From Isoetes taiwanensis (Eukaryota > Streptophyta > Lycopodiopsida > Isoetales > Isoetaceae), in contig JAJEKV010000054.1 of the NCBI GenBank assembly GCA_021234155.1, positions 7,214,655-7,278,654 on the forward strand: a stretch of 64,000 nt of DNA. The letters run 5' to 3'. Below are positions 917-48,198 of the stretch, piece by piece. Within the stretch, counting starts at the first letter, position 1. Each line of letters starts with the position of its first letter. Position numbers and translations under genes: made by a program. The notes beneath the pieces were generated by a model. That model was not told the DNA's origin. It searched no databases and saw nothing but the letters and a program-made list of their open reading frames with translations.

Positions 917-3900
917 TTACTTGTCAAAAACAAGCATAGCTTGTATTCCTTCAGTATTCCTTTGTATGCCAAGCGATTTGCTTTTATTCACAGACTCAGC
1001 TCCAGGAGTGCAGCTAATGATGGTATCAGAGCTATCTGATAGATTAACTATGCTGCAACTGGGATCTAAGCTGCTTCTCATTACTCTCGGGGGCAGATAT
1101 GATTCGCTTCCACCTCCAGATTTTTGAGACACCCAAGAGTTGGTGGTTGTACGTTCCTCATTTGAATTTTTGCTGTATTTTTTCCTTAAGAATTCTTCAT
1201 CTTTGAGCATGATTTCACATACTTCAACAAGTCTAGTATTGCCAAAGCTTAATATCACATCACAGCTTGGATTTATTGTCAGCTTGTTGGCAATCTTTAT
1301 CATGGTATCCCTGGCATGCAGATATGCCAGCTGTGCCATGATAGGCTTTTTCAGGTTTTGTCTTATGAAATGTAGAAAATAGGCCATTCTTCCAGCTGCA
1401 GAATATTTTGGGTAGATGATGTCCAAATGATTAAAAAGATACCATATCGCCTGGTCAAACCAAGTGATTGAATCCTTACAAGTATCAGGCGGGCAGCTGC
1501 ATTTTAAGTAGGGACTCCAGCTTCTCCATATTTTATGTAAGTATGAGTATCCCCTCTCTGTATTCAAGTAGGCCATATGGGCTTTAACACATAGAGTAAC
1601 TCCACTGTTCATCCTACATTTTTTATCAAAAACCTCAGTATGGCACGGAAAGTTAATCTCTACTTCGTCCATTATCTTCACCATATTATTGGTGTCATTG
1701 ATGACAGCCACTAACTCCTCCTCATTAATATCTGCCAACAACGTCCATGCTTTGGTACTAATAGGAGCCAGCACTCCAAAATTGAGGCTTCGCCATAAAC
1801 CCTGATGAAATTCTTCCCCTAGCCATTCAATGGCCATTTCTGAGATAATAGGGAAGCGAAGGCAGTTTCCCAATGTCAACCTAACCAGCTTATCTATGTT
1901 ACTATTTTTGAGATCTGCCTCCTTCTCCTTCTTTATAAGATCAATGTCAACTTTGGGTATAAACTTGACAAACCCATCAGAATTCCCCTCCTCAATAACA
2001 TTATCTATCTGTTTCTTTTTATCAATTTCAAATGTATTATCTTGGAGATTGTGTACCTTTTCTAAGTATGTTACCGTAGCCATGCACTCCATGGATAACA
2101 TGTCATCCAAATCGGTACGATCAGCAAGAATCTCCTGTGTCTTTGAGAAGAGCTGTTGGATCAGATCTTTGCATGCCTCTAAGGTCATTCCCCGCTTGTC
2201 CAGCATCAGGAATGTTTCAAACCATGAACTGAACCCTAAATGTATAATAGGTGAAAACTGATCCTGTTGCAGTCTTCTGTTCAGTTCCAGCATCAGTGTA
2301 TGAATCTCAGCATTAGGTATAAGGGCAATAATCCCCTGGACAGCATTATTTGGAGGGTTTCCCACTTCACCATAGCCCATGTCCAGTAGGTGTTTCATCC
2401 AGCTATTTCTCTACATTGCACCATCCACAGGATTAGTACACTAGAAACTAAGAAAGATCTAACATATTAAGTATTGACTGTGTTTGTTAGATAACTCCAA
2501 CAAATGGAAGTCCCGAATTCTTCTTATTTATATTTACATCAAAACTTCACAATATTTTGTTTAAAACAAAAATAAAGCTCCATATATGATGCAAACATTC
2601 CTATCATATCCATCCTAGTTTTAAACTAGGCCACAGTCCACTTAATATATTAGCAGGCAACATAATGCAAGACATCAGCATTTGCATATTATTATTTTCA
2701 TATGTTTAACATTTATGACAACATAAGCTTAACATTTCATAAATTTTTGAAGGCTATCTTTAGTTATAAACTTTATAATCCAAAAAACTTCTTAAGATAT
2801 TATAATGTCTCAGTTTGTACACTTATAAAATCCGAAATCTATACCAGTTTTTACAAAATCAAGGTTTCAGGAATAACTTTTCTTTGAATACTTTAATTTG
2901 ACTGTTTAGATTCACATATAAGTTACATTGCTTCTGACTTTTAGATACATGAATACATCAGATTAATGATTATCATAATCCAAGCCTGCTTTCCCTAAAA
3001 ACTTTCATTAAGGAAATCTTTTATATATATCATAAGAAAATCGGACAGATCTCACCATGAAGAATCATATCCTATGCTCTAATAGCATTATGCTCGATCT
3101 TCAGTTGCATTCCATTCGTATGGACAGATCCATAGACCAACCACAACACACAGAAAAAGAACTCCAAGGAGAAGATATCTGGGTTACCTGCATCCAACCA
3201 ATATACTAGTTAGCAATAAACATGGTAACAGTATAAGGGATGACAGGTAAGCTGTTAGATATCTTGGCTCTTCGCCCTTCACCTAGAGATTCCCAAAGTG
3301 CATTGGGTCTATAAAATTAGTGAAGACAAGAATAGAGCTGATTATTCCTATAATATATTCATTGGTCAGTAACCTAGTTATTTACCATAATCATTCATCT
3401 AATGCCACTATTCTGCTGGCAGTTTACCTTTAGCCATTCTTATGGTCTCTTTACTTTAGATCTAACAACTAGATTAGTAGAGCCGAAACTGGAATATCCA
3501 AAACCATACTTAGCCTCTTAACATTAGTGCAGTAATACTCCCATAATAACCCATATTTTATCACCTTCACATGATTCTTGGATAGGCCATAATATGGGAG
3601 GAACATAGACCCCACAATCGCTTCTAACATTCGGACCTAATCGCTCTTAAAATCCATTAAAAAATCTGCTTGTATGTACGCAGCCTACCTTATGCGAGCG
3701 TAACTTGACAACAAGATCTTATCTATGATGTAAAGCATAAGTAGACATTTTGGTTATAAATATCATGACAAAACATATGGCGAAAACTTCTTATATTTAG
3801 TCATTATGAGCAATTTTTACATCAACTAATATCACTTAACCTTTACCCAAATACCATACCAAACTGTTTAACCATCTTCATGTAATATAACAAATTCAAT

Positions 3901-4077
3901 GATACAAAGTATTCTAACCTGGTGAGAGTCGCTCCTATCACCATTGCTTTGTTTGGGTGCTTTTTGGACATACTTCCCACTAAAGTTTGGCTTAACATTT
4001 CGCTTGAATGGGAGATTCCCAGCTAACTGCGCCTTACTCTTTTTTCCGGGATGCCTTTCGTATTTCCCTTTGGGCAT
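917..4077 (-). CDS. two-exon gene of an unrecognised family (copy D), 550 codons
   Basis: I do not recognise this protein. Exon 1 runs 4077 to 3919 (53 codons, very basic: MPKGKYERHPGKKSK at the start, ending SDSHQ). Exon 2 runs 2410 to 917 (497 codons, starting RNSWMKHLLDMG). The donor is CACCAG|GTTAG and the acceptor GCAATGTAG|AGAAAT, with a CTAAT branch point about 25 nt upstream. Both exons are phase 0, so the join keeps the frame. Exon 2 has no membrane segment or signal peptide that I can see. It has Cys/His-rich patches (KCSCPPDTC near residue 360) and a Ser/Thr-rich C-terminal tail. The start is the first ATG in frame; TTG codons further up are not used. The copy at 45.9-48.2 kb shares the W-M-L-Y and N-x-P-x-x-AVQ-x-I pattern at the start of exon 2, so the frame is supported by homology. 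Function unknown; a DNA- or RNA-binding basic N-terminus is only a guess. Confidence 0.7.
2411..3918 (-). other. phase-0 intron of copy D, carrying structured element D
   Basis: This 1508-nt AT-rich intron lies between the two exons of copy D. It contains the conserved element at 3172-3283. The part from about 2519 to 3193 is present again, almost unchanged, at 4919-5593. A short stretch near 2483-2530 resembles 6388-6440 and 10385-10440 in the tandem copies, which shows that these introns are homologous. Confidence 0.6.
3172..3283 (-). ncRNA. conserved intronic structured element, copy D
   Basis: Read on the minus strand it starts GGTGAAGGGCGAAGAGCC. The closing stem is AAGATATCT (3265-3257) with AGATATCTT (3180-3172), 9 of 9 pairs. 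An inner stem is TTACCTG (3250-3244) with CAGGTAA (3190-3184), 7 of 7. A GCTAAC branch-point match (3214-3209) lies about 20 nt before CAG|GTAACC, where an acceptor CAG meets a donor-like GTAAC. The same order of parts occurs in eight other copies. The element sits inside the intron of copy D and has no conserved reading frame. It could be a regulated cassette or poison exon, a recursive splice site, or another structured RNA. Confidence 0.6.
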
Positions 4078-4895
4078 TTTGCTACCTGATCGCCTCAATC
4101 ATAGACAGAATGAAAAAGAGGGAAGCAAATACCTTCATTTCGTATGGCTCTCCACCTTATATAGTCTGCGGATGTGGTCATGTCGAAATCCTTTTCAAAG
4201 AACAATAAATTTTCCCTGCTCATATTGGCGCCAACATCTTTTTATAAATGCCTGTCTTATCATCTCTGTTTTGTATTAGAGCATCGAAATGCTCCTATCG
4301 GACCTGTTTCGAAGCTGCTCGCCGCCGCCATCATTGAATACATACCTAATTCCGGACATTCCAAAATACAACCATTTCCCCGTATTTTGCTTTTTATAAT
4401 ACAACATAAGGTTAGGAACAAAAACGAACCACAACCACTTAAATATTCCCAAATATTCGGAATGTTAACATTTTTCTTCTCCACCTACATGTATTTAAAT
4501 ATGCGAACACCATTACATTATTTTACAATATTCTAGTGAACTGCACAAGCCATGCAAGAACTATGGGTCATACTAGCCATAATTTTCACATATGCTTCAA
4601 TCTCCCAGTCACCTGCATTTCCTAACCTTTACTATTTCCCAGGCAATGGACGACAATCCCTAAATATATCGATAATACCAAATAATAGATCATAGAGTTC
4701 TCCCAAAATGAGCTCTTCTTATGATCCATGCTTCTACAAATTAATCCAGTAATCACAGCAACCCATTAATCAAGATATTGCATTACATTAAATTTCATTA
4801 TATAGCACAACTTTGTACTAGCATAGCAGAACTAATAATCCTCCCGCTCTTCATGATGTTGCCATGGTTGTGCTTATCCTCTTCTTCTTCTTCTT

Positions 4896-4918
<23 letters not shown>
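4078..4918. other. upstream region of copy D, no gene seen
   Basis: This stretch lies 5' of exon 1 of copy D and should hold its promoter and 5' UTR. The short open frames in it show no recognisable protein. It ends in a TTC run of about 50 bp (4877-4925) next to the start of a duplicated segment. Confidence 0.35.
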
Positions 4919-4926
<8 letters not shown>

Positions 4927-5593
4927 TTTATATTTACATCAAAACTTCACAATATTTTGTTTAAAACAAAAATAAAGCTCCATATATGATGCAAACATTC
5001 CTATCATATCCATCCTAGTTTTAAACTAGGCCACAGTCCACTTAATATATTAGCAGGCAACATAATGCAAGACATCAGCATTTGCATATTATTATTTTCA
5101 TATGTTTAACATTTATGACAACATAAGCTTAACATTTCATAAATTTTTGAAGGCTATCTTTAGTTATAAACTTTATAATCCAAAAAACTTCTTAAGATAT
5201 TATAATGTCTCAGTTTGTACACTTATAAAATCCGAAATCTATACCAGTTTTTACAAAATCAAGGTTTCAGGAATAACTTTTCTTTGAATACTTTAATTTG
5301 ACTGTTTAGATTCACATATAAGTTACATTGCTTCTGACTTTTAGATACATGAATACATCAGATTAATGATTATCATAATCCAAGCCTGCTTTCCCTAAAA
5401 ACTTTCATTAAGGAAATCTTTTATATATATCATAAGAAAATCGGACAGATCTCACCATGAAGAATCATATCCTATGCTCTAATAGCATTATGCTCGATCT
5501 TCAGTTGCATTCCATTCGTATGGACAGATCCATAGACCAACCACAACACACAGAAAAAGAACTCCAAGGAGAAGATATCTGGGTTACCTGCAT
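4919..5593 (-). repeat. partial duplicate of copy D intron, with half of the structured element
   Basis: This 675-bp segment is nearly identical to 2519-3193, exactly 2400 bp away. The left junction is in a TTC run. The right junction lies just after the CAG|GTAACCC point of the element, so only the 3' arm of the closing stem and the donor-like part were copied. The sequence on the far side (5594 on) is unrelated. An 89-codon minus-strand frame crosses the junction but has no recognisable product. Confidence 0.75.
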
Positions 5594-5811
5594 AGAGGGC
5601 CGGGAATGTCAGGTGGATTCCGGCGGCTAAAACAGAGAAAAGACCATACAAGTCATACACCGACGGAAAGCTCGTTCGATAAGCTTTCCAACGAGCCCAA
5701 GAACGTCTGAATCTGACACCGGAATCCCGAGTTATGAGCAAAAGAGCAGGGCTGAAACCCTAAGCGCCAGTGTAAGCGCCTGGAAGAATAAACATCCAAT
5801 ATGTAGCACGG
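5594..5811. other. unidentified segment between duplication blocks
   Basis: This is more GC-rich than its surroundings and contains stretches such as AAGCTCGTTCGATAAGCTTT and GGAATCCCGAGTTATGAGC. Similar phrases occur in many plant retroelement-like repeats (inference from general knowledge). No coding capacity could be assigned. Confidence 0.3.
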
Positions 5812-6864
5812 GAGCAAGCATAGTATAAAATATTTTTGTAGTGTACAAAATCCAACTAGAATGATATAAATTCATGTTTCAATGATTTGAAGCTCCGAAG
5901 AGAATGAAAAACAAAAGAGAATATTATCTTCTTCTTCTTCTTCTTCTTCTTCTTCTTCTCCCACAATCCCTCCCTCGGGATGTAGGACTCCTCTTTTTAT
6001 AAGGAAAGCAGGACCCCCCCATAAAAAGAGGGGTCCTACTTCCTTACACTAGAAGAAAAACAGATTCATAGAATCTTTCAATCAGCATCAAATTTTTGTA
6101 TCATCTTTATCTTATGAGTATAAGGTGCATTAGACCAAATACCATATCCGCATTAGCAGATAAATCAAGAACTAGTACAATGGACTAGTTCAAGACCCGA
6201 CAAATTGTCAAGGTTTTAAAATCTTTGAAGTACATGAGGCACAGTGGGCCCTAAGTACCATGGACAACCTGATATAGTATACAACACCATATCATAATAG
6301 GCTATGGGCCATTTACCATAACATATGGTAGCAGAACCTATTTTCTTGTCCAAAAGCAATATAATACACACTAACCTGGTTTGTAGAAGAGATGCGTTTG
6401 CCAGATAACTCCAGCAAGTGGAAATCACAATTTCTTCTTCGTACATGTTCTTGCCAAGACTACAGTCACAGTTATGCAAAAAATTACATTAAAAGAACCT
6501 TGTTCAAGGCAAGATCACTTATCCTAATATCCACCCTGGTTTTTTACGCCAGGCCACATCAGGCACTCTCCAAACCAAAGCCCATATAACTTGTCAATTA
6601 ATCTTCCATCTATAAACTTGAATAATCTTACATATTGTCATATAATTTTACATATTGTCATATAATTTTACATCTTTAAACTCGAATAATTTTACGTCTT
6701 ATCATAAAATCTTACAACTATAAACTTAAATCTTACATCTTACATCTATGAAGTTTTGAAATTGGAAGTATAGAGTGTAACGTAGACTTTGACACTTGAT
6801 ATAAGATATTCCATCCTCTTCCGCGTTAACGCCAACTCTAACAACAAAATGGAGACAATTAGAG

Positions 6865-6970
6865 GAGAGAACCCGTACCTGCAGCCAATCAATACACAAT
6901 TAGCGTGAAAAAACTAAATGTGCAAGGGCCAAAAATTACATTGGGTCTCTCAGTTTATCACTGATCACCA
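6865..6970 (-). ncRNA. conserved intronic structured element, copy F1
   Basis: On the minus strand the closing stem is GAGAGACCC (6951-6943) with GGGTTCTCTC (6874-6865), with one bulged base. A GCTAAT branch point is followed by GATTGGCTGCAG|GTACGGG. The upstream GTGATAAACTG matches the GGATAACC lead of other copies. The inner stem present in F2 (GTACCT) is lost here (GTAATT), so this copy may be decaying. Confidence 0.5.
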
Positions 6971-7628
6971 ATTGTATCCTTTTGCCCTGAGATGACATTA
7001 ACTAAAAAGGCCTGGAATAGAAACATATCTAGCATTATAATTTCTCAACTAATCTCAATCATTCCCATTAGACGAGAACTAATTTCTTAGTCCCAAATCT
7101 AGCTGGTCATGTTGATAATTTGTGCATTAGCATTATAATTACCTTACAGCTTTAATTATCAAGTCTTTAATTATCAAGTCTTTGACATTTTAAACTTCCT
7201 CAGTTTGACATCTAAACTTGCTCAATTTGATCTCAACATATTATTTCTGCATTAAATCCATCTACATCTTCTAACTCATGTCAATCTCTAACATAATATT
7301 TATAACGTATGATTTAGAATTTCATATAGATTCTTGAACATATAGATTCTCAAATATAGTTTCTGGAACTTATAGATTCACAAATGAAACGATCAACTAT
7401 TTCCAAAATAGTTACTCTGTTAAGCTAACAAAGCACAGAAATGTTTCAAAGCCAATATAAGACAAGGCTCTAATCAAACCTGATTTAGAGATCTTCATTT
7501 ATTCTTTTGATAAAGTGTTGACGCCAAGATTTTCTTTCAACTTAGCTTGCAATGAGTGCCAAGGATAACCTACACCCTGCAAATGTGTATGAAAGCCAAT
7601 GCTCATTTTATCACAAAGCCTACATCAT

Positions 7629-8178
7629 CATTAGGGTTTTTTTGAGATTAAAAAAGGGCCTTCAAAACATGCCAACTAAGCCAAATGAAGATAAATGAAC
7701 TACCAATCAGAAATCAGAGCCTGACGGGTCCAATCAGCAAAACTGTTATAACTAACTCACTGGATCACATTTTCTAGCATAAGTGTTGATAGAAAAGTCC
7801 AAATGAGCTTTTGTTTGGTGCAATAGATAGATCTCATTGAGATCTTTCCAACCTTGGGTGGTTTGCATATCTTTTAGCTCCGTAGGATAGTAAAAAATGG
7901 TAAAAACTATATTTTTTGGAGTTTTGACAATCATAAGTGGTTAAAATATGTGCAAAGCACCTAAGGATGGAAAGATCTCAACGAGATCTATCTATTGCAC
8001 TAAACAAGAGCTCATTTGGACTTTTCTATCAACACTTATGCTAGAAAATGTGATCCGGTGAGTTAGTTATAACTGTTTTGCTGACTGGATTACCAGTTCT
8101 GTTTCTTGATTGGTAGTTCATATAGTTTAGTCAGCAGTTCTTAGAAGGCCCTTTTATGATCTCAAAAAATCCCTAATG
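7629..8178. mobile_element. 550-bp foldback MITE inserted in tandem copy 1
   Basis: Two arms of about 200-250 bp, roughly 85% alike, face each other around a short AT-rich loop. The ends are CATTAGGGTTTTTTTGAGAT and the inverse of CATTAGGGATTTTTTGAGAT. The flanks TACATCAT and TTTCCATTTCG join exactly to give the sequence of the empty copy at 11621-11640, so the boundaries are well set. No target-site duplication is left by these boundaries. No transposase is encoded, so it is non-autonomous. Confidence 0.8.
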
Positions 8179-9105: not shown

Positions 9106-10861
9106 GCAAAGCCCTTTCTGCATAAAGTACTCTGCATAAAGTACAAATGTTTTACATGTATTCTATTTAGAATTTATTAAGAGATGCATCACATCATATA
9201 TGTAAACCATGTCATATATTAAATTAAATTAAGGTCATTGTCTCTATTACAAGGCCCCCAAAAATCTAGAGAGGCGTAGTTTTCAAGTCTTGTAATTTTT
9301 CAATGCCTAGAAGGTCAAGGTGCCATAATTATTACCATGTACACCCATCATTTCCTACAAGCACAAGTAAAAAGAGTATTTAATGCAATCACCTTTTTGC
9401 ACCAACGTGGCAATATCTCAACTATCCATTGCCAAAAAATAGCTTCACAAAAAGGCAACTATAGATATTGCTTTTTATTACCTCATATCTTCTTCTTATA
9501 TATGAACCTCATATATTTTTCACCATCAAAATCTCTATATATTTCACAATCTTAGGCCAAATTGCCTTAAACCACCATGCATCTTAGGCATATGCCCCCA
9601 AATTGCACCTTAGGCATAATAGTTCCATATAATATGTCAGAACAATCCCCCTAGAGGATGTGGCACTATAACCTATGTCACCGGCCAGTTTCTTAGTTTA
9701 AAGCCAAGTTTTACTTGTGAAGGCCACCATATTATGGAGAGCCACTTAGATTTCTACTGATTCCATAATATGGATCTTCTATTCTATTCTAAGTCAAATT
9801 ACAACATAGAGCAAGCATAGTATAAAATATTTTTGTAGTGTACAAAATCCAACTACAATGATATAAATTCATGTTTCAATGATTTGAAGCTCCGAAGAGA
9901 ATGAAAAACAAAAGAGAATATTATCTTCTTCTTCTTCTTCTTCTTCTTCTTCTTCTCCCACAATCCCTCCCTCGGGATGTAGGACTCCTCTTTTTATAAG
10001 GAAAGCAGGACCCCCCTATAAAAAGAGGGGTCCTACTTCCTTACACCAGAAGAAAAACAGATTCATAGAATCTTTCAATCAGCATCAAATTTTTGTATCA
10101 TCTTTATCTTATGAGTATAAGGTGCATTAGACCAAATACCATATCCGCATTAGCAGATAAATCAAGAACTAGTACAATGGACTAGTTCAAGACCCGACAA
10201 ATTGTCAGGGTTTTAAAATCTTTGAAGTACATGAGGCACAGTGGGCCCTAAGTACCATGGACAGCCTGATATAGTATACAACACCATATCATAATAGGCT
10301 ATGGGCCATTTACCATAACATATGGTAGCAGAACCTATTTTCTTGTCCAAAAGCAATATAATACACACTAACCTGGTTTGTAGAAGAGATGCGTTTGCCA
10401 GATAACTCCAGCAAGTGGAAATCACAATTTCTTCTTCGTACATGTTCTTGCCAAGACTACAGTCACAGTTATGCAAAAAATTACATTAAAAGAACCTTGT
10501 TCAAGGCAAGATCACTTATCCTAATATCCACCCTGGTTTTTTACGCCAGGCCACATCAGGCACTCTCCAAACCAAAGCCCATATAACTTGTCAATTAATC
10601 TTCCATCTATAAACTTGAATAATCTTACATATTGTCATATAATTTTACATATTGTCATATAATTTTACATCTTTAAACTCGAATAATTTTACGTCTTATC
10701 ATAAAATCTTACAACTATAAACTTAAATCTTACATCTTACATCTATGAAGTTTTGAAATTGGAAGTATAGAGTGTAACGTAGACTTTGACACTTGATATA
10801 AGATATTCCATCCTCTTCCGCGTTAACGCCAACTCTAACAGCAAAATGGAGACAATTAGAG

Positions 10862-10966
10862 GAGAGAACCCGTACCTGCAGCCAATCAATACACAATTAG
10901 CGTGAAAACGGTAAATGTGCAAGGGCCAAAAGGTACATTGGGTCTCTCAGTTTATCACTGATCACC
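10862..10966 (-). ncRNA. conserved intronic structured element, copy F2
   Basis: Same architecture as F1. The closing stem is GAGAGACCC (10948-10940) with GGGTTCTCTC (10871-10862), one base bulged. The inner stem GTACCT/AGGTAC is intact. A GCTAAT branch point and GGCTGCAG|GTACGGG follow. It lies about 1.1 kb downstream of the degenerate first exon on the same strand, the same order as in copy D. Confidence 0.55.
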
Positions 10967-15717: not shown

Positions 15718-16112
15718 ATATAGATCTATTATTGTCTGCTGATGCATAAAAGTAATTGTTAAAAGACATGATGCATGCTTCCTGTAAGCATGGTATAAAC
15801 TGGTATGCTGTAAACTTAAAGCTTATGTTGATGAATTGTTGGTGGAGCAGACTTATGGGATCTATTTGCAATTGGTATCTACACATATGAAGCTATAAAT
15901 CTAGTTACAATATAATAATGTTAAAGTGCTAATTTGAGTGACATTTGACACATGGGCTGGACTGCACAGACAGATCTAGAAGCTTTTATGTAAAATCGTT
16001 AAGGTAGACAGCCAATAAATCTGACCATAGTGATTCTATAATTGTATTTTGCCATTGGGTTCAGATTGGTATGGCATTCATGTATAATTTTAAGTATTTA
16101 CTGATTGCAAGC

Positions 16113-16233
16113 AGTGTGAAGGGGGATAACCTTAGAGGACCCCATGACGCCTGCTAGTAGCTTAGGCTCTTACCCATGAACTTGGCTAACCGGGCCTTTT
16201 GGTTCTACTGCGCAGTAACAGGTCCTCTACTCT
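16113..16233 (+). ncRNA. conserved intronic structured element, copy B
   Basis: The lead is GTGTGAAGGGGGATAACC. The closing stem is TAGAGGACC (16133-16141) with GGTCCTCTA (16221-16229), 9 of 9 pairs, with a sequence unlike the stems of D, A and C. A GCTAAC branch point (16185-16190) is followed by CGCAG|TAACAGG, so the donor-like G is missing or was miscalled. It lies downstream of exon 1 of copy B on the same strand. Confidence 0.55.
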
Positions 16234-17616
16234 ACTGCTTTTGTTTTCTTTTAAACAAGTAGCTGGATTTACGCCTTTCGGATGGAAGATATGACGTGAA
16301 GTTTCTACATTTGTACTCTGACGATGTCATAATGGTTGTAAGATAAACTTGATATGCTATTATTGATAAAGGTAATTTACTTGCTCATAATATAAGTTGG
16401 GGCAATATTATTGCGGTTGTGAAATTTCACAGATGTTTTACATTATTAAAATGATGACCTTGTCTAAGTCTTAAGGCAAAAACTGATATATGTTTTGTTC
16501 TTCATAAAATATTGAATATAAATGATATGGAAAGGAAAAAGATGTAACCAGGTCTATGTCTTAACGCATATACACCTGTATGCATTAAGAGCTGCAAATT
16601 GAATCTTGATTTAGAAAAAGGTCTTGATTAAGATTAATGGTCCAGTCCATGCCGGACTTAAGGGTTTTTATATAATCTCGGTTCATCGTTATACCAAAGA
16701 ACTTAGACCGTGGTTATTTTCAGGTGTTTACATTGTACTAAACTTCAAATGATGGTATTTTCATAGGAACATGACAGATTGGATGAACACGACGTCATAT
16801 TTAATGGACATGATGTCAACTACCAATGGATATTGGTCATGAAGAATCAAAAATATTGAATTATTCATTAGAAAGGCATTTGCCCAAACCGTGGAATGGC
16901 ATTTGCCCATGGATCATGATGAACTTGGAATTAAATAAGATAAAAATAGCATTTGAGATTTTGGTATTGGTACATTGTACATTATTTTGCATATGAGTAG
17001 GAAAGCATTACAGGTTGGGTAGGGCCTTGGCTGCAACAAGGTCCTACTCACCTTGTTGCTTCATAACTTCATAAAATGAATATGAAATTTGCTGAGGCTT
17101 TTCTGACCTACGGATGGAGGCAGGATTTTTTATTATTAAGTCCACAAATTTGTGGCATAAATACATGAGTGTTTGATGGCGAGGTATCTAATTTGGCAGG
17201 CATTTGTGATGGTTTATGGCCTTGAGCTATCGAAAAAAAAGATATGGCAATTAAGATCTAATGGCAATTGCCTCATAAGGTTAGTACTTTGCATTTGTAC
17301 CGTAGAGTTGTCAAAGTAGCAAGGGCTTTGGCGATTGCATGCTGGTTCATGAGTAATGGTGCATTATGCAAAGGGATGTTTTAATGTGTTTACCATTATT
17401 TGGGATATGGCAAATGGAATTTTAACCGCATAACCTTAACATATATGGTATGCATTTGTGGCAGTCCGTAATATGGGCTTGGCCGTAATATGCTTGGCCG
17501 AAAAACGTAATATGGGCCTGGAAAACTTAGGGTTCCTAGATCCATTCTTATATTTAGGGCTTTGCTTTGACACTACAAAGTGTCTCTTTGATCATCGCTT
17601 TGCTTTGGGAATGAGA

Positions 17617-17818
17617 ATGGGCCGCCATGAGAGATCCGCCATTGCTCGGAGAGATCGCCATTGCTCGGAGTGGCAAGGGAAATATCTTTGGTGGTAGATA
17701 ATTGTATGGCTGGAACCACTTTGCGTAAAATGTAGCATGATACAAAGGAACTCCAGCAACATGCTGAACAAGGAAGCAAAGGATGGGAGCAAACTTACAG
17801 ATCCACCAAATAACTCAG
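17617..17818 (+). pseudogene. first exon of the local gene family, copy E (frame broken)
   Basis: Starts ATGGGCCGCCATGAGAGATC like copy B and ends TAACTCAG|GTTTTTTC. It reads MGRHERSAIARRDRHCSEW before a stop. Compared with copy B it lacks bases at several CTG sites (CTCTGGAG against CTCGGAG). Broken frame, or miscalled sequence. Confidence 0.4.
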
Positions 17819-18662
17819 GTTTTTTCATTTGAATATGATTATTATGCTGATCTAGATGCGATTTAATGTAATTCTACACGATTTATGTATGGAGGCATAT
17901 CTAGACATTGGATAAATTAATGACTGGTTGTTGCATAGGCATAAAATGCTATTATTTTTGTGTAGATCTGATCTGGGTAATAGTTAAATGACTAAATGCT
18001 GGATCTCGCCTATTTTATCTCGATGTATTTTGTGGAGATGGCATGTGCATTTTAATCCGATTTGCTATTTAAAGTTGCACTTGAATATAAATGTTCGGTA
18101 ATCGCCTTAAAGCTTGTCATTACCTAAATTTCCAATTATCTATTTAAGGAGTGCATTGACCATAGTTTGAACTAAAGGAGACTTACTGCACAATGTAAAA
18201 CTTGTAATTAGAACATTTATGGTCAAGTAGATAAAGGCATTTGCTGGCATAGAATAGGAGTTGGAAAATTGTGGGTGATAAGATAGATATAGATCTATTA
18301 TTGTCTGCTGATGCATAAGAGTAATTGTTTCCCTCGTAAGCATGGTATAAACCGGTATGTTTGAAACTTAAAGCTTATGCTGATGAATTGTTGCTGGAGC
18401 AGACTTATGGGATCTATTTGCAATTGGTATCTACACATATGAAGCTATAAATCTAGTTACACTATAATAATGTTAAAACGCTAATTTGAGTGACATTTGA
18501 CACATGGGCTGGACTGCACGGACAGATCTAGAAGCTTTTATGTAAAATCGTTAAGGTAGACAGCCAATAAATCTGACCATAGTGATTCTATAATTGTATT
18601 TTGCCATTGGGTTAAGATTGGTATGGCATTCATGTATAATTTTAAGTATTTACTGATTGCAA

Positions 18663-18779
18663 GCAGTGTGAAGGGGATAACCTTAGAGAACCCCATGATG
18701 CACGCTAGTAGCTTAGGCTCTTACCCATGAACTTGGCTAACCGTCCTTTGGTTCTCTCGCAGTATCGGGTCCTCTACTC
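18663..18779 (+). ncRNA. conserved intronic structured element, copy E
   Basis: The lead is GTGTGAAGGGGATAACC. The stem TAGAGAACC (18684-18692) pairs with GGTCCTCTA (18768-18776) with one A-C mismatch. A GGCTAACC branch point and TCTCGCAG|TATCGG follow. The context suggests the original was CTGCAG|GTA or similar, changed at CTG/CAG positions. Confidence 0.5.
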
Positions 18780-19204
18780 CTGTTTTGTTTTCTTTTAAAC
18801 AAGTAGTCGGATTTACGCCTTCGGATGGAAGATATGACGGAAGTTTTACATTTGTACTCGGCGATGTCATAATGGTCGTAAGATAAACTTGATATGCTAT
18901 TATTGATAAAGGTAATTTACTTGCTCATAATATAAGTTGGGGCAAGATATTATGGGTTGTGAAATTTCACAGATGTTTTACATTATTAAAATGATGACCT
19001 TGTCTAAGTCTTAAGGCAAAAAGCCGATATATGTTTTGTTCTTCATAAAGTATTGAATATAAATGATATGGAAAGGAAAAAAAAAGATGTAACTAGTCTA
19101 TGTCTTAATGCATATACACCTGTATGCATTAAGAGCTGCAAATTGAATCTTGATTTAGACAAAGGTCTTGATTAAGATTAATGGTCTGGTCTGTACCAGA
19201 CTTA

Positions 19205-19208
19205 AGGG

Positions 19209-19239
<31 letters not shown>

Positions 19240-20510
19240 AGATAAATATTGCCATTGCAAATAATAGAAAAATAGTGCAAGTCATACTAAGACCAGAAAG
19301 TTCCCTTCAAATAGCCATGTATATGTCTCTCAAGTTGTACCTCCCTCAAGTGGCGCACCGTAATTTGTAACAACATAGCATTGTGCCAATCTTGGTGATA
19401 TCCTGGCACACAACCATTACGTCAAGGTAAAAATTTGAAGTTAAAAGATCATTTGTTGTTTTTATACATGAAGTAGGAGGTTTTTTAGTTGAATATGAAG
19501 ATAAATGGCATGTTTGCTATTTGTCAATATTCTATAAATTGCTTGCATGCATAGTTCTCTTTTGCTTTCTCCTTGAACACTTTAAAGTACTATATCAATG
19601 AATTGTTGGCTAGTAAATATTTCAAATGTAAATGGCCGTACTCCTATTGCAATTTTCACATGCAAGTTTCACTTAGAATTTGCCAAAAAGAGCAACCCTA
19701 ACATGTAGGGTTTTTCTACAAAAAGGAGCCGCTTTGTAGCCGCTTGTTCTTGTTGAATCTTCTGTCGCTTCATGCCTAGTTTGGCTGCCATTCTGCTGGT
19801 AGATCTGATCCTAGTTCTCTCACGAGAAGTCTAATGTGCCTTTTGAAAGATTGGTGACCTTGAATGGGCGAAAATGCCAAGAGCTATGTGACGGCATTTA
19901 ATACATTCCCAGCCTCTGTTAGAATGGATGGAGGCATGCTGCTGTACAATTTTAGCATCAGTTGCAGGTCATGGTTTAGAATGGAAAATGGCTACTGTTC
20001 TAGCTACATTTTTGTGGATGCACAATAAAGGAACAATCTCATACACATTCAATCAAGAACATTGAGCCGCTCTTCATATTCGTGTACTCTTGTGGACTTT
20101 AGTCTATTCTCATGAGAGGTTTAAAATGTAAAGGGTCAGACATACTTCAAAAGCTGATTGTACACTATCTGAACGATATTGCCTCAAAGAGTAGAGCGCC
20201 CTCATCTTTGGTGAATATGTTTCTTATTTTTAATGATTAGAATAAAAATTTTTTGATCTAGTTTAACTATTCAAATAAATGACTTGTTGTCTCTCGATTA
20301 AGCATGCTATATAGGTCAGCTGACTTAATATGAAACATTCCATCCTTTTCTATGTTATCTCTAGCTAATTGGGCAAAGGGTTACAAAAGCTAAATGGTTA
20401 TACACCAAGAGGCTCCATTGTAACCTTTGGCCCTTCATTCATTACCAAGTCTATTGCTAATATTATGATGATTGGCTGCAGGTACCGGACCTCTCCTACA
20501 TGTATCTTGC
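19205..20510 (+). repeat. duplicated block, also at 42.84-44.08 kb (gene unit G2)
   Basis: Starts in a T-run followed by AAATATTGCCATTGCAAATA and ends after structured element G2. The copy at 42841-44085 is about 95% alike. It contains a possible first exon at 19864 (ATGGGCGAAAATGCCAAGAG, MGENAKSYVTAFN) that stays open for only a short way. Confidence 0.75.
20395..20498 (+). ncRNA. conserved intronic structured element, copy G2
   Basis: The closing stem is AGAGGcTCC (20408-20416) with GGACCTCT (20487-20494), 8 pairs with one bulged C. Inside, GTAACCT faces AGGTAC. A GCTAAT branch point is followed by GATTGGCTGCAG|GTACC. The acceptor part is the best match to copies F1 and F2. Confidence 0.5.
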
Positions 20511-20535
20511 AACATGTCATTGGAATAAATTTGTA

Positions 20536-21448
20536 TCGTGAATGATGTTTTATATCAGGTTTATTGAAAAATCTATTTCTTTTGAAACGTTCTTTCTTTA
20601 TTTTGCAACGCATTTCAATGTTCAGGAATTTTTATTAGTAGATTTTTTTGAAACACGTTAGAAATTTGATACACATTTCAAATACTTCAAATTGAAATGC
20701 ATATCACAATTGTAATATGTTTCAAATTTGAAACGCATTACAATTTTTTAACGTGTTGCCAATTTATAACGCATTTCACTTGACCCATCAATTGTAACGC
20801 GATATAACTTCGATTTGAGACGCCACTTTAAAATTATAATATATTATTAATTTAATGTAAAAAGCATTACAAAGATAGGTTTTTTTTTTTTTTTTGAAGG
20901 ACGAAAGCCAAAAAGTTTATTAATCAGAGAAAAAGTACAACATTTACATGTCTCATCTAACTGTGTAAGCACACAGAGATGCCACAGGAGCACGAGCCTG
21001 GAGCACAATGTACTTACTCCAGAATAGGAGACTAATGATAAGAATCAATTCGAAGATACTGAATCCAGATGCGTTCCACAAGTTCTGAGTCAAGGGAAGA
21101 ACACTCGTAGGCTGTCAATATCTTTTTCTGGGCCACTGTAATAACACTGTGTGCAGATGAATAAATGCCCTGAAAGATGTGGTGTCTGCGACGCTCCCAT
21201 ATCGACCATAGGAGCCAACCGGAACCAAGATGAAATGTCCTTTGTTTAGCTGGAGGCCATGCGTTGGGATAGGACGCCAAAAGGATGCATCGGCAGGCCA
21301 ATGTACTGTTAAACAAACCTTGTAGCCAGGACCACGCTGGTTGAACCTCAGGACAATCAAAGAGACAATGCTCAAGAGTCTCAACGTCCGAGAGGCAGAG
21401 CGGGCATACTGCAGATATGCGAGGATCATAGCGATGTCGAAAGATAGG
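20536..21448. repeat. interspersed repeat, filled by a LINE tail; empty copy at 38.9-39.5 kb
   Basis: 20536-20880 matches 38893-39250. It is rich in ATTTCAAATTTGAAAC-type palindromic stretches. The match resumes at 21449 (GTTTTTCTTCTAGTGATAAG) after an insertion. The same downstream part recurs at 26240-26760, so the family has at least three local copies. No coding capacity. Confidence 0.65.
20881..21440 (-). mobile_element. 5'-truncated LINE 3' end with zf-RVT domain
   Basis: On the minus strand a frame reads RYDPRISAVCPLCLSDVE, then LEHCLFDCPEV and a Trp-rich stretch, ending ...YLRIDSYH. This CX2C...HX4C pattern is the zinc-binding zf-RVT module found at the C-terminus of plant LINE reverse transcriptases. 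The element ends in a poly-A, seen as a T-run at 20880 on the plus strand. It is flanked by AAAGATAGG on both sides. The related repeat at 39241 has this site once and empty. Only the tail inserted, so it is dead on arrival. Confidence 0.8.
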
Positions 21449-38485: not shown

Positions 38486-38486
38486 C

Positions 38487-42423: not shown

Positions 42424-42533
42424 AGAGTGAAGGGATAACTCAAAAGATCCCATGACACCGCTAGTGCTGCCATGATTACCCTTTTTAGGCTAATTTTTGG
42501 TTGGTTTACCGCAGTAAATGTGATCTTTTGCTC
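42424..42533 (+). ncRNA. conserved intronic structured element, copy C
   Basis: The lead is GAGTGAAGGGATAACT. The closing stem is CAAAAGATC (42441-42449) with GATCTTTTG (42522-42530), 9 of 9 pairs. An ATTACCC segment, a GGCTAAT branch point (42488-42494) and TTTACCGCAG|TAAATG follow. The donor-like part is weaker than in A and D. Confidence 0.55.
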
Positions 42534-43655
42534 TTTGCAATCGATATTTCTTTCAATATTATGGAGCCGCCTCACGATGAAGTATTTCTTCAAGGATCCG
42601 TGGAAGCTCTACTTTTCTACTCTATTTCCTGAAAAATTAGTTGTAAATTGTTTTAGTAACAAATGACTTCTACCCATTGGGTAATTTGTTTCCATATGCT
42701 TTATTTTAAAGTATGAAAATGTTTTGATGGTACCAAATCATTGCTTAGATGTATGTACACCAGTATAATCTAAGGCTGCTAATTGAAGGCCAAATTCTCA
42801 AAAGGGCTTTTGGTCTTAGGGTCAGGACTTGTCTTGACAAAGGTTTTTTTTTTTTTAATTCGATAGATATTGCCATTGCAAATAATAGAAAAATAGTGCA
42901 AGTCATACTAAGACTAGAAAGTTCCCTTCAAATAGCCATGTATATGTCTCTCAAGTTGTACCTCCCTCAAGTGGCGCACCGTAATTTGTAACAACATAGC
43001 ATTGTGCCAATCTTGGTGATACATTGGTGTTAGGCACACAACCATTACGTCAAGGTAAAAATTTGAAGTTAAAAGATCATTTGTTGTTTATACATGAAGT
43101 AGGAGGTTTTTTAGTTGAATATGAAGATAAATGGCATGTTTGCTATTTGTCAATATTCTATAAATTGCTTGCATGCATAGTTCTCTTTTGCTTCTCCTTG
43201 AACACTTTAAAGTAGTATTTCAATGAATTGTTGGCTAGTAAATATTTCAAATGTAAATGGCCGTGGGTGGATAAAGGTACGTTTACTCCAATTACAATCT
43301 TCACATGCAAGTTTCACTTAGAATTTGCCAAAAAGAGCAACCCTAACATGTAGGGTTTTTCTACAAAAAGGAGCCGCTTTGTAGCCGCTTGTTCCTGTTG
43401 AATCTTCTGTCGCTTCATGCCTAGTTTGGCTGCCATTCTGCTGGTAGATCTGATCCTAGTTCTCTCACGAGAAGTCTAATGTGCCTTTTGAAAGATTGGT
43501 GACCTTGAATGGGCGAAAATGCCAAGAGCTATGTGACGGCATTTAATGTCAGGTGCACATTCCCAGCCTCTGTTAGAATGGATGGAGGCATGTCACGCAT
43601 AATTTTAGCATCGGGCCAGTGTCATGGTTTAGAATGGAAAATGGCTACTGTTCTA

Positions 43656-43766
43656 GCTGATTGTACACTATCTGAAAGACACTGCCTCAAAGGCTGATTG
43701 TACACTATCTGAAATACACTGCCTCAAAGGCTGATTGTACACTATCTGAAATACACTGCCTCAAAG
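43656..43766 (+). repeat. three tandem 37-bp units
   Basis: Units start at 43656, 43693 and 43730 with GCTGATTGTACACTATCTGA and end CACTGCCTCAAAG. The partners at about 13575 and 20151 have one unit. Confidence 0.9.
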
Positions 43767-43967
43767 AGTAGAGCGCCCTCATCTTTGGTGAATATGTTTC
43801 TTATTTTTAATGATTAGAATAAATTTTTTTGATCTAGTTTAACTATTCAAATAAATGACTTGTTGTCTCTGGATTAAGCATGCTATATAGGTCAGATGAC
43901 TTAATATGAAACATTCCATCCTTTTCTATGTTATCTCTAGCTAATTGGGCAAAGGGTTACAAAAGCT

Positions 43968-44073
43968 AAATGGTTATACACCAAGAGGCTCCATTGTAAC
44001 CTTTGGCCCTTCATTCATTACCAAGTCTATTGCTAATGTTATGATGATTGGCTGCAGGTACCAGACCTCTCCT
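43968..44073 (+). ncRNA. conserved intronic structured element, copy G1
   Basis: The stem AGAGG (43984-43988) pairs with CCTCT (44066-44070), extended imperfectly by flanking bases. A GCTAAT branch point and GATTGGCTGCAG|GTACCAG follow. One base of the stem differs from G2 (CAGACCTCT against CGGACCTCT). Confidence 0.45.
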
Positions 44074-44085
44074 ACTTTTGTAATT

Positions 44086-45872
44086 CCTTTGTTCTAGTTT
44101 GTTGATGCTGCATGGATTTGGACGTGGAGAAAGAGATACAATATGTGACAAAGAGTATAGGCTGGTGGAGCTGTCCTATATGGCCAAGTGTCTCTAAATA
44201 TGACTTCTAAGTTAAACAGGTTGTATTTTTCCACTTTTCTAAGATATGGTCTCAATTTCAAACTAAGATCGGTATATGGATAAACGCTTGATCTGGCTGT
44301 TTTTTTATGGTATCATGAATCAATCTGTTGTTGCTTAGCCTCTTTTCAATATTTATAATGAAAGTATAGATTACCATGACAGTCATGTGACCAATTGAAA
44401 ATTTGGATTTGTCACGACATTGACACCTTATGCACCTATGTGAACAACATTTATTGCATGTAGAAAATTATTTTTATGAGTTCCTCTACTATTATTCCAA
44501 TGATATGAGCTGCTTTGGCACATTTACATATTTATCTATCAGCATCTTTATTTACACAAAACTAGGTTCTTAAATTATACATTTTAAACGTTTTCAATGA
44601 ATGGTGACATGAGCAAAAGATTGGCAGAACGGATATATTCATTTGGCTATATAGTATCTTGACTTATAGAAATAAATGTATACAAGCCCCTTGGTTTAAC
44701 ATTGTTTTTGTTGCTGACATTTGGCATAAACATGACTTATGAAAGTTGAATGAGAAATGACATTAAGATTTATTTTGTTAATTTTCAATTCGAAGGTTCT
44801 AGAGGCTAAAGGACAATAAGTACCATACAATTCTTACGTAAGTTTGAATCTGGGTTGATAATACAATTCTTGGAATTGACCGAGGATTGATGTTAGACCT
44901 AGGATTCTAGGTTTGGCTGATTTTTTTTTTTTGCTTTTTTTCTTTTTTTTTTTTTATTATTGGTCATTTATAGTTATAAAGACTTCATATATAAAAAAAG
45001 GGGAGATTTGGTTATGCTAAGGCTAATAATGATATTATTTGACTACTGGTGTAGGGGAACATATTAGCCCCATAATGATTTTGTAATTGGGGACTTGCAA
45101 TTCCATATGGGTGTTCCCTATTGCGACTTTACACAAAATTCTTACTTAACAGTGCATGCATTAAACTTGGGATTAACATTATGTTATTTTACCAAGTATG
45201 GTGATTAAGTGGGAATTAGGATGTCTATCCTTGTATGCAGATCTACTAGCTACAGTGATGATCAGTGCATGGAGTAGTGTTGGAAACATGATTTGCTTAT
45301 CTTCATGTTCAGGGGTGGCTCTACAAGACTTGTTATGGTTTAAGTGGTTGTTGTTGACCCACATATTGGTTCTTGTGTTTTAAAGACCACTATGTAACAT
45401 TTGGAAAATACCTACTTTTGGCGTGGATCTTAGGATTTACCCCATATATATTTTTTTGGGCTTATTATGTGGTTATTATTACAAGTAATTTGTTGAGACT
45501 TTAGTATTTTGACCTTGTTTATTCTTAAACCAGTGATAATATTGTTTTAAATATAACTTAGGTGGTCAAAAATGGTAAAGGGAAAATTATTTGTTGTTAC
45601 AGACCTGTTTTTTGAACTTTAGGGTTACGGGTATGTGGCCGAAAAGATATCGTGAATGTTTTCTTCTAATAATACATCTGATGTTAAACTTGCTGGTTTC
45701 GGAGCTGGCTTCCAGGTATGCACTGTCGTTCGTGACTTTAGGACTGACGGTATCAAGTGCTATTGTAAAATAGCTTGTGATTTGTCCATATATTGTTGTT
45801 TATGAGTTGATTTCATTGCCATGCTCATTTACTGTTCAGTTGTCTTGATGTCGGAGCTGTGTTAATGGTGGC
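44086..45872. other. upstream region of copy A, no gene seen
   Basis: AT-rich with T-runs near 44922-44956. Short open frames have no recognisable product. It should contain the promoter of copy A, but no element can be fixed with confidence. Confidence 0.3.
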
Positions 45873-48198
45873 ATGGGCCGGAAGAAAGGAGACTTAAACA
45901 TGGCTACCAGAAGAAGAATTGAGGAAGAGAATGCTAAGGAAACCAAGGCTGCCAAGAAGTTGAAGCCCTTCTCTTTCCATAAAAAGGTTGTAGCTGCTAA
46001 AGCTATTGCAGTTCCTATTGCTCGAAATTTGGGTGATGATTCTATAGAAATTGCCAGTGAGAAGTTGGTGCAATGTAGTGATCTGGCCAGCACTGCCCAA
46101 AAGAGCTCTGATAAAGCAGTAATGGTGGAATACCCGGATATTGGTGATGGATCTAGCAAATTAACTCCCTCAGGCATTAGCATACCAGCTGCTTCCCAAG
46201 CTATGGATTATCCTGCATCTTCTAACCAGGTTGGATGAATTATCTAGGTTTTTTCTATAGATGCTGTTGTTTCCATATCTCTATTCATTGTAGTAAGTTG
46301 CTTGATCAGGTCTTGGCCAGTTTCTCTATTATTTAAGTAGACTTCTTACTGTTTGTAAAATTCATGCTGAGCCTATACACTTTTAGTATTGCTTCTTGAT
46401 CTATTGTGTCTGCTTTGGCTTTCAACCCATTTTAGACAGTTTATGTGGTTATTATTGTATTTACTTCTCCAGTTGTAGACAGGATATATTATGTCTCTGA
46501 ATTATATCTATGATTCGTCTATTTGCATATCTGATTATTGTTTTTCAGCTATTATGGCTCTAGCTTCTACTAACCTATAGTATGTTGCCAAATAATAATG
46601 TAGTTACTGTTCTGCTTTAAACTCTCCAAAAGCTTATTGGTCCTGCTGGTGTTTATTCTCTTTTGAGTTCATCTCTATGTTGATAGTCTTTCTATGGACT
46701 GTAGATTCAGGGCCTAGGTTTATTTACTGGGCTGGCTAGCTCTATAACCGTATTTTATTCCTTATAGGTATATGGCTATTTTGTAGTATAGCATCATTTT
46801 AATTAACGTGTTATTGTTCTTGGCTGGTTTTTCTATGGTATTTACCCTTACTCCAAAAAAACTTTCTTTATTTTCCTCCTTTAGATCTTCTGTATTGCTG
46901 CTATTTGTTCTAAAATTATTATGCTGGATGCTTTGCTATAGAAAATATACATAGTCCCATGATGTTTCATGATTCGTTCTGCTGCTATTTGTATTCTCTT
47001 AGGTATATCCGATCCAAGTTCTCTCTACTTTAGTTAACAAATGTATGTTCCTGTTACTATTCTCACTTTATGTTCTCATAAGCTTGACTTTATGATTATT
47101 ACTTGAAACGGCTATAAACCTTTGATCTTGGGTATTTCTCTATGCTTAGTAAGTGCTTTCGTAAGTGTTACTTGTGTAAAGTAATGAACAAATACCTTTT
47201 GGTTTTATTTGTTTACATGTTTGGTATATAAATGGAATTTGCTAACATATTACCGGATCGGAGTTGGCCTTAACCTCTTCTTATTACCTCTAAAACTCCG
47301 CCTATGCTATAGCATGATTGTTAGCCATATGAGTTATAGGTTTAATTCGAAAGTTTCCCGCTTTTACACCTTCTAGTTTGTTTATTAAGACATGCATGGT
47401 GAAGGGCGATGAGCCCAAGAAATCTAAGCTTACCTGCTAGCGCTTAGGTCTTTACCCTGACTAAGGCTAATGTTCCTATGGTTTGCTGCAGGTAACGGGA
47501 TTTCTTGCTCCCTGTGTGTTTTTCACATTATTCATAATGGCAAGACTCTTTTATCAAGGATTTTTCAAGAATTATCTATGTAATGTTATTTTTGTATCGT
47601 GATATGATATATTTGTGTATTATACAAGGTCAGTACCTTCTTTCTACTCTTTTATACAGATGTTTGCTGCTGGTTAAAACAGCAGATTATTCTGAGTTTT
47701 GTTGTATCTCTAGATTTCTCATGTATATTATGACCTTTTTGGAGTTACAAGTTTTATTCCCTTTGTAAATTTATTTGCTTTTAAAGGTTTGTTGATGTAT
47801 TTTGGATATTCAAGAACCATATTATGGCCTAAGTGGAAATACACCGTTTCATACTTAGGGTTGCTAATTGTACCTTGAAAAAGTCTTTAATAAAAGTCTT
47901 TTAAAGGTAGAAAGTCCGCTTGTTCAGTTGAAGGTTTTTTTATCAATACTCAGTTCTCTAGTTCTACTAGAGACCATAATTATGGTTATCTAATTTTCAG
48001 GTGGTTAATTTATGCTAAAAATATTTTTGGTACTAATAGATATGAGTTTTTATAGGATATTACAAGAAAATTGATGGATGCTACTGAGATTGACAACAAT
48101 TGGATTATGGAGCTAGTGCAATTAAAGTACAATGAGCAGCAGATCAATAGCCCAAATTTTGCTGTGCAAACTATTTTGGCATGCATAAAGACACACTG
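45873..48198 (+). pseudogene. copy A of the local gene family, truncated in exon 2 by a repeat
   Basis: Exon 1 is 45873-46229 (119 codons, MGRKKGDLN... ending PASSNQ), rich in Lys, Ala and Glu in its first half. The donor is AACCAG|GTTGG. Exon 2 starts at 48056 after GAGTTTTTATAG, with a TACTAAT branch point 25 nt upstream. It reads DITRKLMDATEIDNNWIMEL and on to SPNFAVQTILACIK. This aligns with the start of exon 2 in copy D (RNSWMKHLL...NPPNNAVQGIIALI), and both joins are phase 0. After about 44 codons the frame enters a repeat (from about 48189) and stops at once. Exon 1 and the splice sites look intact, so a short product of about 166 residues remains possible. Function unknown. Confidence 0.65.
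47396..47512 (+). ncRNA. conserved intronic structured element, copy A
   Basis: The lead is GGTGAAGGGCGATGAGCCC. The closing stem is AAGAAATC (47417-47424) with GATTTCTT (47499-47506), 8 of 8 pairs. The inner stem is TTACCTG (47430-47436) with CAGGTAA (47489-47495), 7 of 7. CTTAGGTC/GACTAAG forms a third hairpin around TTTACCCT. The CTAAT branch point (47467-47471) lies about 20 nt before GCTGCAG|GTAACG. With D it is the most complete copy. It sits in the 1826-nt intron of copy A. Confidence 0.6.

Follow-up and report, generated by a model that had tools for sequence, protein, structure and literature searches.

A repeated intronic rod and its host genes

The subject of this analysis is an RNA element that recurs nine times in a 64,000-nucleotide stretch of the Isoetes taiwanensis genome (contig JAJEKV010000054.1, positions 7,214,655 to 7,278,654; hereafter the window). 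Each copy is a rod of ∼110 nt, named here after its start position in an initial annotation of the window (47396, 3172, 6865, 10862, 16113, 18663, 20395, 42424 and 43968). Copy 47396 sits in the intron between exon 1 (45873..46229, plus strand; beginning MGRKKGDLNMATRRR and ending at the donor CAG+GTTGGA) and exon 2, whose start (DITRKLMDATEID.., 48056..48185, plus strand) was placed by alignment with L010, L015 and L016, three of the loci sampled from the same genome, and gave no tblastn match. Exon 2 is interrupted downstream by a repeat: a direct repeat pair (48185-48345 and 50226-50386, 93% identical) starts where it breaks off, so this gene copy is broken while its intron element is intact. 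A second gene, on the minus strand, has exon 1 at 3919..4077 (MPKGKYERHPGKKSK.., donor CAG+GTTAGA) and exon 2 at 917..2407 (a 497-codon open frame with no known domain). Between the two sits rod 3172 (3169..3282, minus strand), which has the variant closing stem AAGATATCT/AGATATCTT. Only these two copies in the window lie between recognisable exons 1 and 2.

Every rod has five helices: P1 is a small hairpin, P2 the closing stem, P3 a middle stem, and P4 and P5 are apical. Its 5′ lead, delimited by hand, reads GTGAA, or CTAAA in 20395 and 43968. Copy 47396 (47399..47512, plus strand; covariance model match 47399-47509) represents the main, or A, type, with P1 GGGC-GATGA-GCCC, P2 AAGAAATC(T)/(G)GATTTCTT, P3 TTACCTGC/GCAGGTAA, P4 and an apical P5 TTACCC/GGCTAA; immediately 5′ of it, on the same strand, is a lead conserved in part (47372..47398, 70–100% identity among the paralogues compared). 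The A′ type is found on the plus strand at 16116..16232 (closing stem TAGAGGACC/GGTCCTCTA, with a second hairpin downstream at 16560-16590) and, as a decayed duplicate of 16113, at 18668..18779; a third, A-like type lies on the same strand at 42427..42533 (closing stem CAAAAGATC/GATCTTTTG, second hairpin at 42744-42774). B-type rods occupy 10859..10965 on the minus strand (closing stem GAGAGACCC/GGG(T)TCTCTC), with a decaying duplicate at 6862..6968 on that strand (41.2 bits in the model search), and 20390..20498 on the plus strand (closing stem AGAGG(c)TCC/GGACCTCT), duplicated at 43966..44074, also plus, with exon 1 at 45873 lying 1.8 kb downstream. Because these three pairs (6865/10862, 16113/18663 and 20395/43968) are long segmental duplicates, the nine copies amount to six independent lineages (47396, 3172, 10862, 16113, 20395 and 42424). 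All nine are at the positions and on the strands first reported, and the closing-stem sequences quoted at that time are correct.

The element is far more numerous in the source genome, where a query with copy 47396 gave at least 40 scored matches of 914 candidates and a query with 42424 at least 40 of 164. From these, 20 regions of 9.9 kb, six of 1.1–1.4 kb and 20 of 186–196 bases were sampled. A covariance model built from 12 copies and run over the window and the 26 larger loci (269,726 bases) returned 51 matches (36 distinct rows), and one match in each of the 20 short loci. It recovered all nine window copies (E 7.3e-7 to 9e-21); its seed rows included six of them, but not those at 6862, 18668 and 43966.

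According to the initial annotation the clearest copies follow the first exon of one gene family, within its intron. This is true of the main type: exon 1 lies upstream on the same strand, 402–1460 nt away, in 25 of the 27 A copies for which 1.8 kb or more of upstream sequence was available (both exceptions are in L018), and was not found in the 27, 205 and 880 nt available upstream of three others. It does not extend to the A′ and B types, where exon 1 was upstream in none of the 15 copies surveyed. Exon 2 could be placed within 1.8 kb downstream in 14 of 30 A copies, by hand in the case of the window. The survey took its 30 A copies from the window and the 20 larger loci, excluding six copies in the 1.1–1.4-kb loci; as loci were picked by similarity to copy 47396, it does not describe every genomic copy. 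B copies stand 1.7–2.0 kb upstream of exon 1 in six of 11 cases (L012, L013, L015, L016, L024 and window 43968), the other five being L014, L028 and window 6865, 10862 and 20395.

The host genes form a family of their own. The exon 1 donor, G+GTT(G/T)GA, is at the same place in all 15 paralogues listed (13 with CAG, two with CGG). Exon 1 encodes a basic N-terminus, and exon 2 encodes ∼535 amino acids that include the motifs GHMAYPN and WRTHCPYFxCxC. Purifying selection acts on the intact frames of exon 2, with nonsynonymous to synonymous rate ratios (dN/dS) of 0.13 (L010/L015) and 0.10 (L022/L023) in the two unsaturated pairs. The exon 2 protein has no Pfam match and no homologue among ∼5.8 billion proteins, its single match in the PDB is at E 0.47, and searches of viral contigs found neither a relative of it nor any match to a rod pattern.

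Covariation of the helices and constraint on the rod

The helices differ in sequence between copies and yet pair. P1 occurs as GGGC-GATGA-GCCC, CAGT-GATAA-ACTG and TGGT-TATAC-ACCA; P3 as TTACCTGC with GCAGGTAA or as GTACCT with AGGTAC; the short, variable P4 as TGCACA/TGTGTA, ATAC/GTAT or AGG/CCT; and P5 as TTA-c-CN with NG-c-TAA, the inner pair of which covaries (CC/GG, CA/TG and CG/CG, that is, C-G, A-T and G-C). In the closing stem of the 42424 type the outermost pair is C-G in L036, L038 and others, T-G in L039 and L040 and T-A in L049-L054, a series that reads as compensatory change with a wobble intermediate.

The arms of each helix were permuted among the six window lineages and duplex energies compared, a procedure that is independent of the model-fitted alignment, although its arms were set by hand. 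For P2, whose covariation was the original claim, the true partners are the best of all arrangements (1/720). Structure is not confined to this stem: covariation is seen in P1 and P4, in the inner pair of P5 and in the region of P3, own partners ranking 2/720 for P4 (1/720 with flanks), 2/720 for P3 with flanks and 6/720 for P1.

The larger sample maintains the covariation and extends it to further helices. In the 51-row alignment 92.3% of pair cells are paired, as against 34.5–46.5% when slid, 20 of the 32 pairs have changed on both sides, and none of 500 shuffles reached the observed value on any of five measures; because the alignment was fitted to the model, these figures lean towards structure. 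Helix by helix, the paired fraction and the number of pairs with double changes are 98.5% and three of four for P1, 97.1% and eight of nine for P2, 79.3% and six of six for P4, and 98.3% and one of five for P5. Given the same alignment, RNAalifold picks P2, P4, P5 and an inner extension of P3 (23 pairs, 16 with double changes). The rod is thus a structured cis-RNA whose pairs have been kept through double changes beyond the controls, least so in the core of P3.

The two plus-strand B copies contain a further pairing. At 20366-20440 and 43942-44016 an upstream GGGCAAAGGGTTACAA complements TTGTAACCTTTGGCCC, a stretch that takes in the 5′ strand of P3, and this arrangement is preferred when 20366-20498 is folded alone; it could be a second state of a switch.

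Constraint on the rod is most evident in comparisons between diverged genes. Between 47396 and L010 the rods are identical at 114 of 114 positions, while exon 1 and the start of exon 2 are each 84% identical and the intron 61–68%; the region of a third hairpin (47946-48002) is 91% identical. Across five diverged paralogues (L009, L010, L014, L017 and L028) the rod is 94–100% identical and the 5′ part of the intron 61–72%; L011, L012, L013 and L016 are too alike throughout for such a contrast. L010 and L023 differ at a proportion of 0.82 of synonymous sites (saturated) and 0.25 of nonsynonymous sites, and their rods at four of 111 positions plus one gap. In the divergent loci L018-L027 the block 47372-47524 aligns at ∼88–92%, and of the rest of the intron only short stretches near 47815-48191, together with bits of exon 1, align at all (66–85%). 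The rod thus evolves more slowly than nonsynonymous sites in the host family. Around B copies, too, the rod is the main block shared among diverged loci (∼70–77% identity over ∼65–190 nt). The rod of covarying helices is under strong purifying selection.

Splice-site-like motifs in the rod and its intron

That the copies share a GCTAAY motif and a GCAG near the 3′ stem was noted from the outset and is borne out; their likeness to splice sites went unremarked. GCTAAY looks like a branch point, GCAG like an acceptor, and a donor-like GTAA or GTAC stands directly behind the latter in most copies. In the 47396 rod, on the plus strand, GCTAAT occupies 47466..47471 in the 3′ strand of P5, and GCAG+GTAAC occupies 47488..47496 in the 3′ strand of P3, so that an acceptor-like AG abuts a donor-like GTAAC at the boundary 47491/47492. 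GCTAA is present in all 51 alignment rows, ∼20–30 nt 5′ of GCAG. CAG+GTAA is found in 24 of the 28 A copies scored (TAG+GTAA in L029), and CAG+GTAC in the four B copies whose site was anchored correctly; automated scoring took the wrong AG in L011:2654, window 16116 and L028:2714. Within P3 the donor strand GUAA can pair with the CUUACCUGC-like strand opposite, and CUUACCUGC is also the 5′ end of the U1 small nuclear RNA (snRNA).

A possible cassette exon begins at this boundary in some copies. In the window the donor-like GTCAGT lies at 47629..47634 (plus strand), 137 nt past the GCAG boundary; such a second donor, AAG+GTCAGT, is confined to one subgroup and occurs 133–188 nt past the boundary in 12 of 28 A copies (window 47396, L009, L010, L011, L013-L017, L026, L028 and L029). 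The exon bounded by GTAAC and AAG+GTCAGT contains a stop in eight of the 12 (phase 0) and is shifted in frame in L011, L015 and L016; in L013 it would be 138 nt long, open and in frame.

Copies 16113, 18663 and 42424 show small changes at CTG/CAG that are absent from their relatives, and for that reason the GCAGTAA that they read is probably decay or base-calling error. Small indels and swaps cluster at CTG/CAG, relative to near-identical sequences, in window 16116-19022 and 42427-42533 and in L012:895-1004, L035, L040, L047 and L050 (for example CCTGC to CCGC and CTGCAGGTAAC to CCGCAGTAA). The pattern resembles either miscalled bases at CHG sites that are methylated or decay, rather than evolutionary loss of GT, and suggests that the affected copies are heavily methylated. 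At window 5591 (minus strand) a partial copy is fused to unrelated sequence at ATGCAG+GTAACCC, at or next to the AG+GT boundary of the 3172 rod; the joint could be one of recombination or a trace of splicing.

Further conserved parts follow the rod. A second covarying hairpin, recognised by alignment at 47828..47859 (plus strand), has the stem CCTAAGT/ACTTAGG and a loop with ACACC. In 11 hand-picked copies 97.4% of the cells of its seven pairs are paired and five pairs show double changes, with seven pair types, under the shuffled mean of 8.0. A pattern search placed it ∼256–435 nt past the rod site in 17 copies and after no B copy, but missed it after others, including window 47396, where the alignment shows one. 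Next in order come a T-run, a third hairpin whose loop is of the TTATA type (by eye, GTTCTCTAG-TTCTA-CTAGAGAC at 47953..47974, plus strand) and a second juxtaposed AG+GT site, which in the window is TTTTCAG+GTGG (47998..48004, plus strand; 55 nt 5′ of exon 2). This site reads CAG+GTGT in nine copies and CAG+GTGG in the window, 41–55 nt before exon 2. A remainder of 41–55 nt is too short for a usual plant intron, and because of this the site is possibly a competing acceptor rather than a ratchet. In four of five genes (L010, L018, L032 and window 16116, but not window 47399) the loop of the second hairpin holds the longest complement, 6–8 nt, to the second AG+GT site, a hint that the two may pair; the search took the wrong site in L022, L023 and L019 and found none in four entries. 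In several loci (L018:6437, L021, L022:9170, L024, L031, L033, and window 19209-19235 and 42844-42856) a long T-run after the second hairpin leads into unrelated sequence, as though the T-run had been a repeated target of insertion.

The window also holds a near-perfect inverted repeat at 7729-8089 (two 178-nt arms, 88% complementary, with a 5-nt spacer), long arrays at 52821-53944, 56082-56832 and 60146-61759 built from a degenerate 19-bp unit (GCCTAGGTGGCATGTTGGA, also as the reverse complement), and a Copia-type gag at 62119-62514 (Retrotran_gag_2, E 8.3e-12).

A proposed gated splice site and its alternatives

None of the 4227 Rfam families matched the window at the gathering cut-off. There was likewise no match at E≤5 on 47300-47600, and the one match on 16000-20600 (E 1.7) overlapped no rod. 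The view that no named element fits, and that the rod is neither a thiamine pyrophosphate (TPP) riboswitch nor a 5S mimic, agrees with this absence. Among open-licence papers, no title or abstract listed by the searches describes such an element. The recurrent fold and its slow change suggest an RNA element that is undescribed and that perhaps controls splicing. Other readings weighed were those of a hammerhead, hepatitis delta virus (HDV), twister, group I or II, small nucleolar RNA (snoRNA), U-snRNA or Sm site, with Rfam, which found no match at the rods, as the sole test. The rod does not fit a plant microRNA precursor, which would be a near-perfect duplex of ∼21 nt with no large asymmetric loops: unequal internal loops lie between P2 and P3, and both P2 arms differ between types. 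The 47396 rod can be read as MVKGDEPKKSKLTC followed by a stop, but a coding exon was discarded because one base is inserted in copies of the L023 type and the sequence is different in other types.

The original interpretation as a structured intronic RNA is supported: Rfam offers no known family, covariation persists in the enlarged alignment, and the main type is tied to a gene family. From the motifs we infer a role in splicing that would include use of GCAG+GTAA. Our preferred explanation, to which we give a probability of about 0.4, is that the rod is a structured RNA that acts in cis: placed in intron 1 of a large family of orphan genes, it would gate a dual splice site, and relatives of it occur elsewhere in the same clusters. 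The GCTAA, the AG+GT site, the CUUACCUGC pairing and the occasional second donor are the grounds for choosing a structure-gated dual site, with recursion or a cassette exon as its outputs. In the folded state the paired strand would hide the donor from U1 while branch point, tract and AG are kept in one arm; once opened, or bound by a factor, the AG+GU site would serve as splice acceptor. Its donor might then enter a second reaction straight away (recursive splicing of zero length); alternatively, in copies that have another donor downstream, a cassette exon might be retained, bringing a stop or frame shift in most cases examined. The same device may also include the second hairpin and the second AG+GU site close to exon 2, which perhaps serves as a competing acceptor.

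Several observations weigh against this explanation. The core of P3, on which the masking of the donor depends, is the least supported helix: its own partners rank only 120/720 in the arm permutation, 87.9% of the cells of TTACCTGC/GCAGGTAA are paired with double changes in only two of eight pairs, and RNAalifold picks neither it nor P1. Whole P5 likewise fails to beat the permutation (480/720); both it and the P3 core are unremarkable there because they hardly vary. Single-sequence folds are moderately stable (z −2.82, −1.44, −1.42 and −1.58 in four copies), and copy 20395 with its upstream flank prefers another hairpin, one that occupies the P3 5′ strand. As to the splice sites, donor or acceptor has been lost in L015, L020:1229 and L022:2796, nine of 28 A copies have no downstream donor scoring above 5 on donor frequencies (L018 twice, L022 twice, L023, L025, L027, L030 and L032), the second donor is restricted to its 12 copies and the tract 5′ of GCAG is only modestly pyrimidine-rich. 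An intron of 1.8 kb is short for classical recursive splicing, and the second AG+GT site leaves only its 41–55 nt before exon 2.

The rod may be compared with several known systems. Ratchet points, or recursive splice sites, of Drosophila and vertebrates are juxtaposed AG+GT acceptor-donor sites within introns; they resemble the rod in the conservation of that site and, for some copies, in a possible cryptic exon with a downstream donor, and differ in belonging mainly to long introns and in poorly conserved exonic content (PMC8605326). As a sequence motif the rod contains just such a tandem site. Unlike ratchet points it surrounds the site with a covarying fold of ∼110 nt, lies in a 1.8-kb intron, belongs to a multi-copy family and has no general downstream donor. 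Plant TFIIIA contains P5SM, a structured exon that mimics 5S rRNA and acts as an exon-inclusion switch. Like the rod it is structured RNA in the splicing territory of a plant gene, with exon inclusion as a possible outcome; the rod, however, has no Rfam match to 5S rRNA, and the exon 2 of its host carries no Pfam domain, so neither mark of a TFIIIA 5S mimic was found. The plant TPP riboswitch is a structured RNA near splice sites that controls mRNA processing; the window has no Rfam riboswitch match, and both gene and shape are other than those of the rod. In spliced-leader RNAs the leader pairs with its own donor, much as a CUUACCUG-like strand can pair with the CAG+GUAA donor in the rod; the rod differs in being intronic and in showing no Sm-type site by eye in the main types, an Sm-like AATTTTTGG being seen, by eye, only in the 42424 type.

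Of the other explanations, one would have the rod, perhaps with the second hairpin, freed from the excised intron as a stable, protein-bound RNA that acts in trans in the manner of intronic snoRNAs, the splice-like motifs being coincidental or connected with processing. It would explain why the rod is better conserved than the exons and why copies are numerous, and the conserved unpaired letters (a GATAA-type loop and TTGGTT) suggest a protein site. Yet no snoRNA or other Rfam family matches the rods, closing stem and loops differ between types, and GCTAA and GCAG with a donor behind it are kept in most copies; we consider it doubtful. A structured cassette, or poison, exon like the 5S-mimic exon of TFIIIA, in which inclusion of the exon starting at GTAAC would be set by binding of a ligand, or of the gene's own product, to the rod, draws on the AAG+GTCAGT donors with their stops and frame shifts and on the basic N-terminus encoded by exon 1. 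The open, in-frame exon of L013, the A copies without a scoring donor and the lack of 5S likeness in Rfam speak against it, and we regard it as unlikely.

It is somewhat less likely again that the rod is a nested intron resembling the stwintrons of fungi, with the 93 nt from GTGAAG to GCAG as an internal intron whose removal would join the preceding G to GTAAC and so create the donor of the next. Donor, branch point and acceptor do have look-alikes in G+GTGAAG, GCTAAY and TGCAG, and the junction after removal would read G+GTAAC. Fungal stwintrons with foldable internal symmetry, in which an intron-like segment ends where the next donor begins, are described, as are sister copies (PMC9024468). 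However, the well-conserved B copies 20395, 43968, L012, L015 and L016 read CTAAA in place of GTGAA and so have no 5′ donor for an internal intron, although such an intron could still hold for A copies; P2 extends past the supposed intron, and there is no clear exon between exon 1 and the rod. That the block has no RNA function, and is homogenised by recent copying or gene conversion or is part of a mobile element, seems very improbable. In its favour are the size of the family, the recent segmental duplication of some copies and the start of the partial copy at 5591 (minus) at ATGCAG; but the six lineages differ in sequence with pairing kept, and the location of the main type in one intron is maintained. 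Gene conversion would moreover have to strike the rod alone, because exons and flanks of the same genes have diverged.

The preferred explanation of a structure-gated dual splice site has a bolder form, which we think rather unlikely, if less so than a poison exon. Here the rod would be an undescribed RNA switch that folds on itself into a cage about a dual acceptor-donor site and carries its own U1-like antisense strand. It would recur in the clusters of a large orphan family, which by this means would set its own splicing, directly or via its basic protein, and selection on it would be tighter than on the protein. If the preferred explanation is right, it would join recursive or dual splice sites with conserved RNA folds, subjects that are seldom linked, and would provide a short, testable structure for keeping an AG+GU site closed or open. 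The rod is an intronic RNA of the nucleus, more strongly conserved than the adjoining coding exons, and the searches made here found no relative of its host gene family; the natural variant copies of the rod within a single genome are built-in compensatory mutants.

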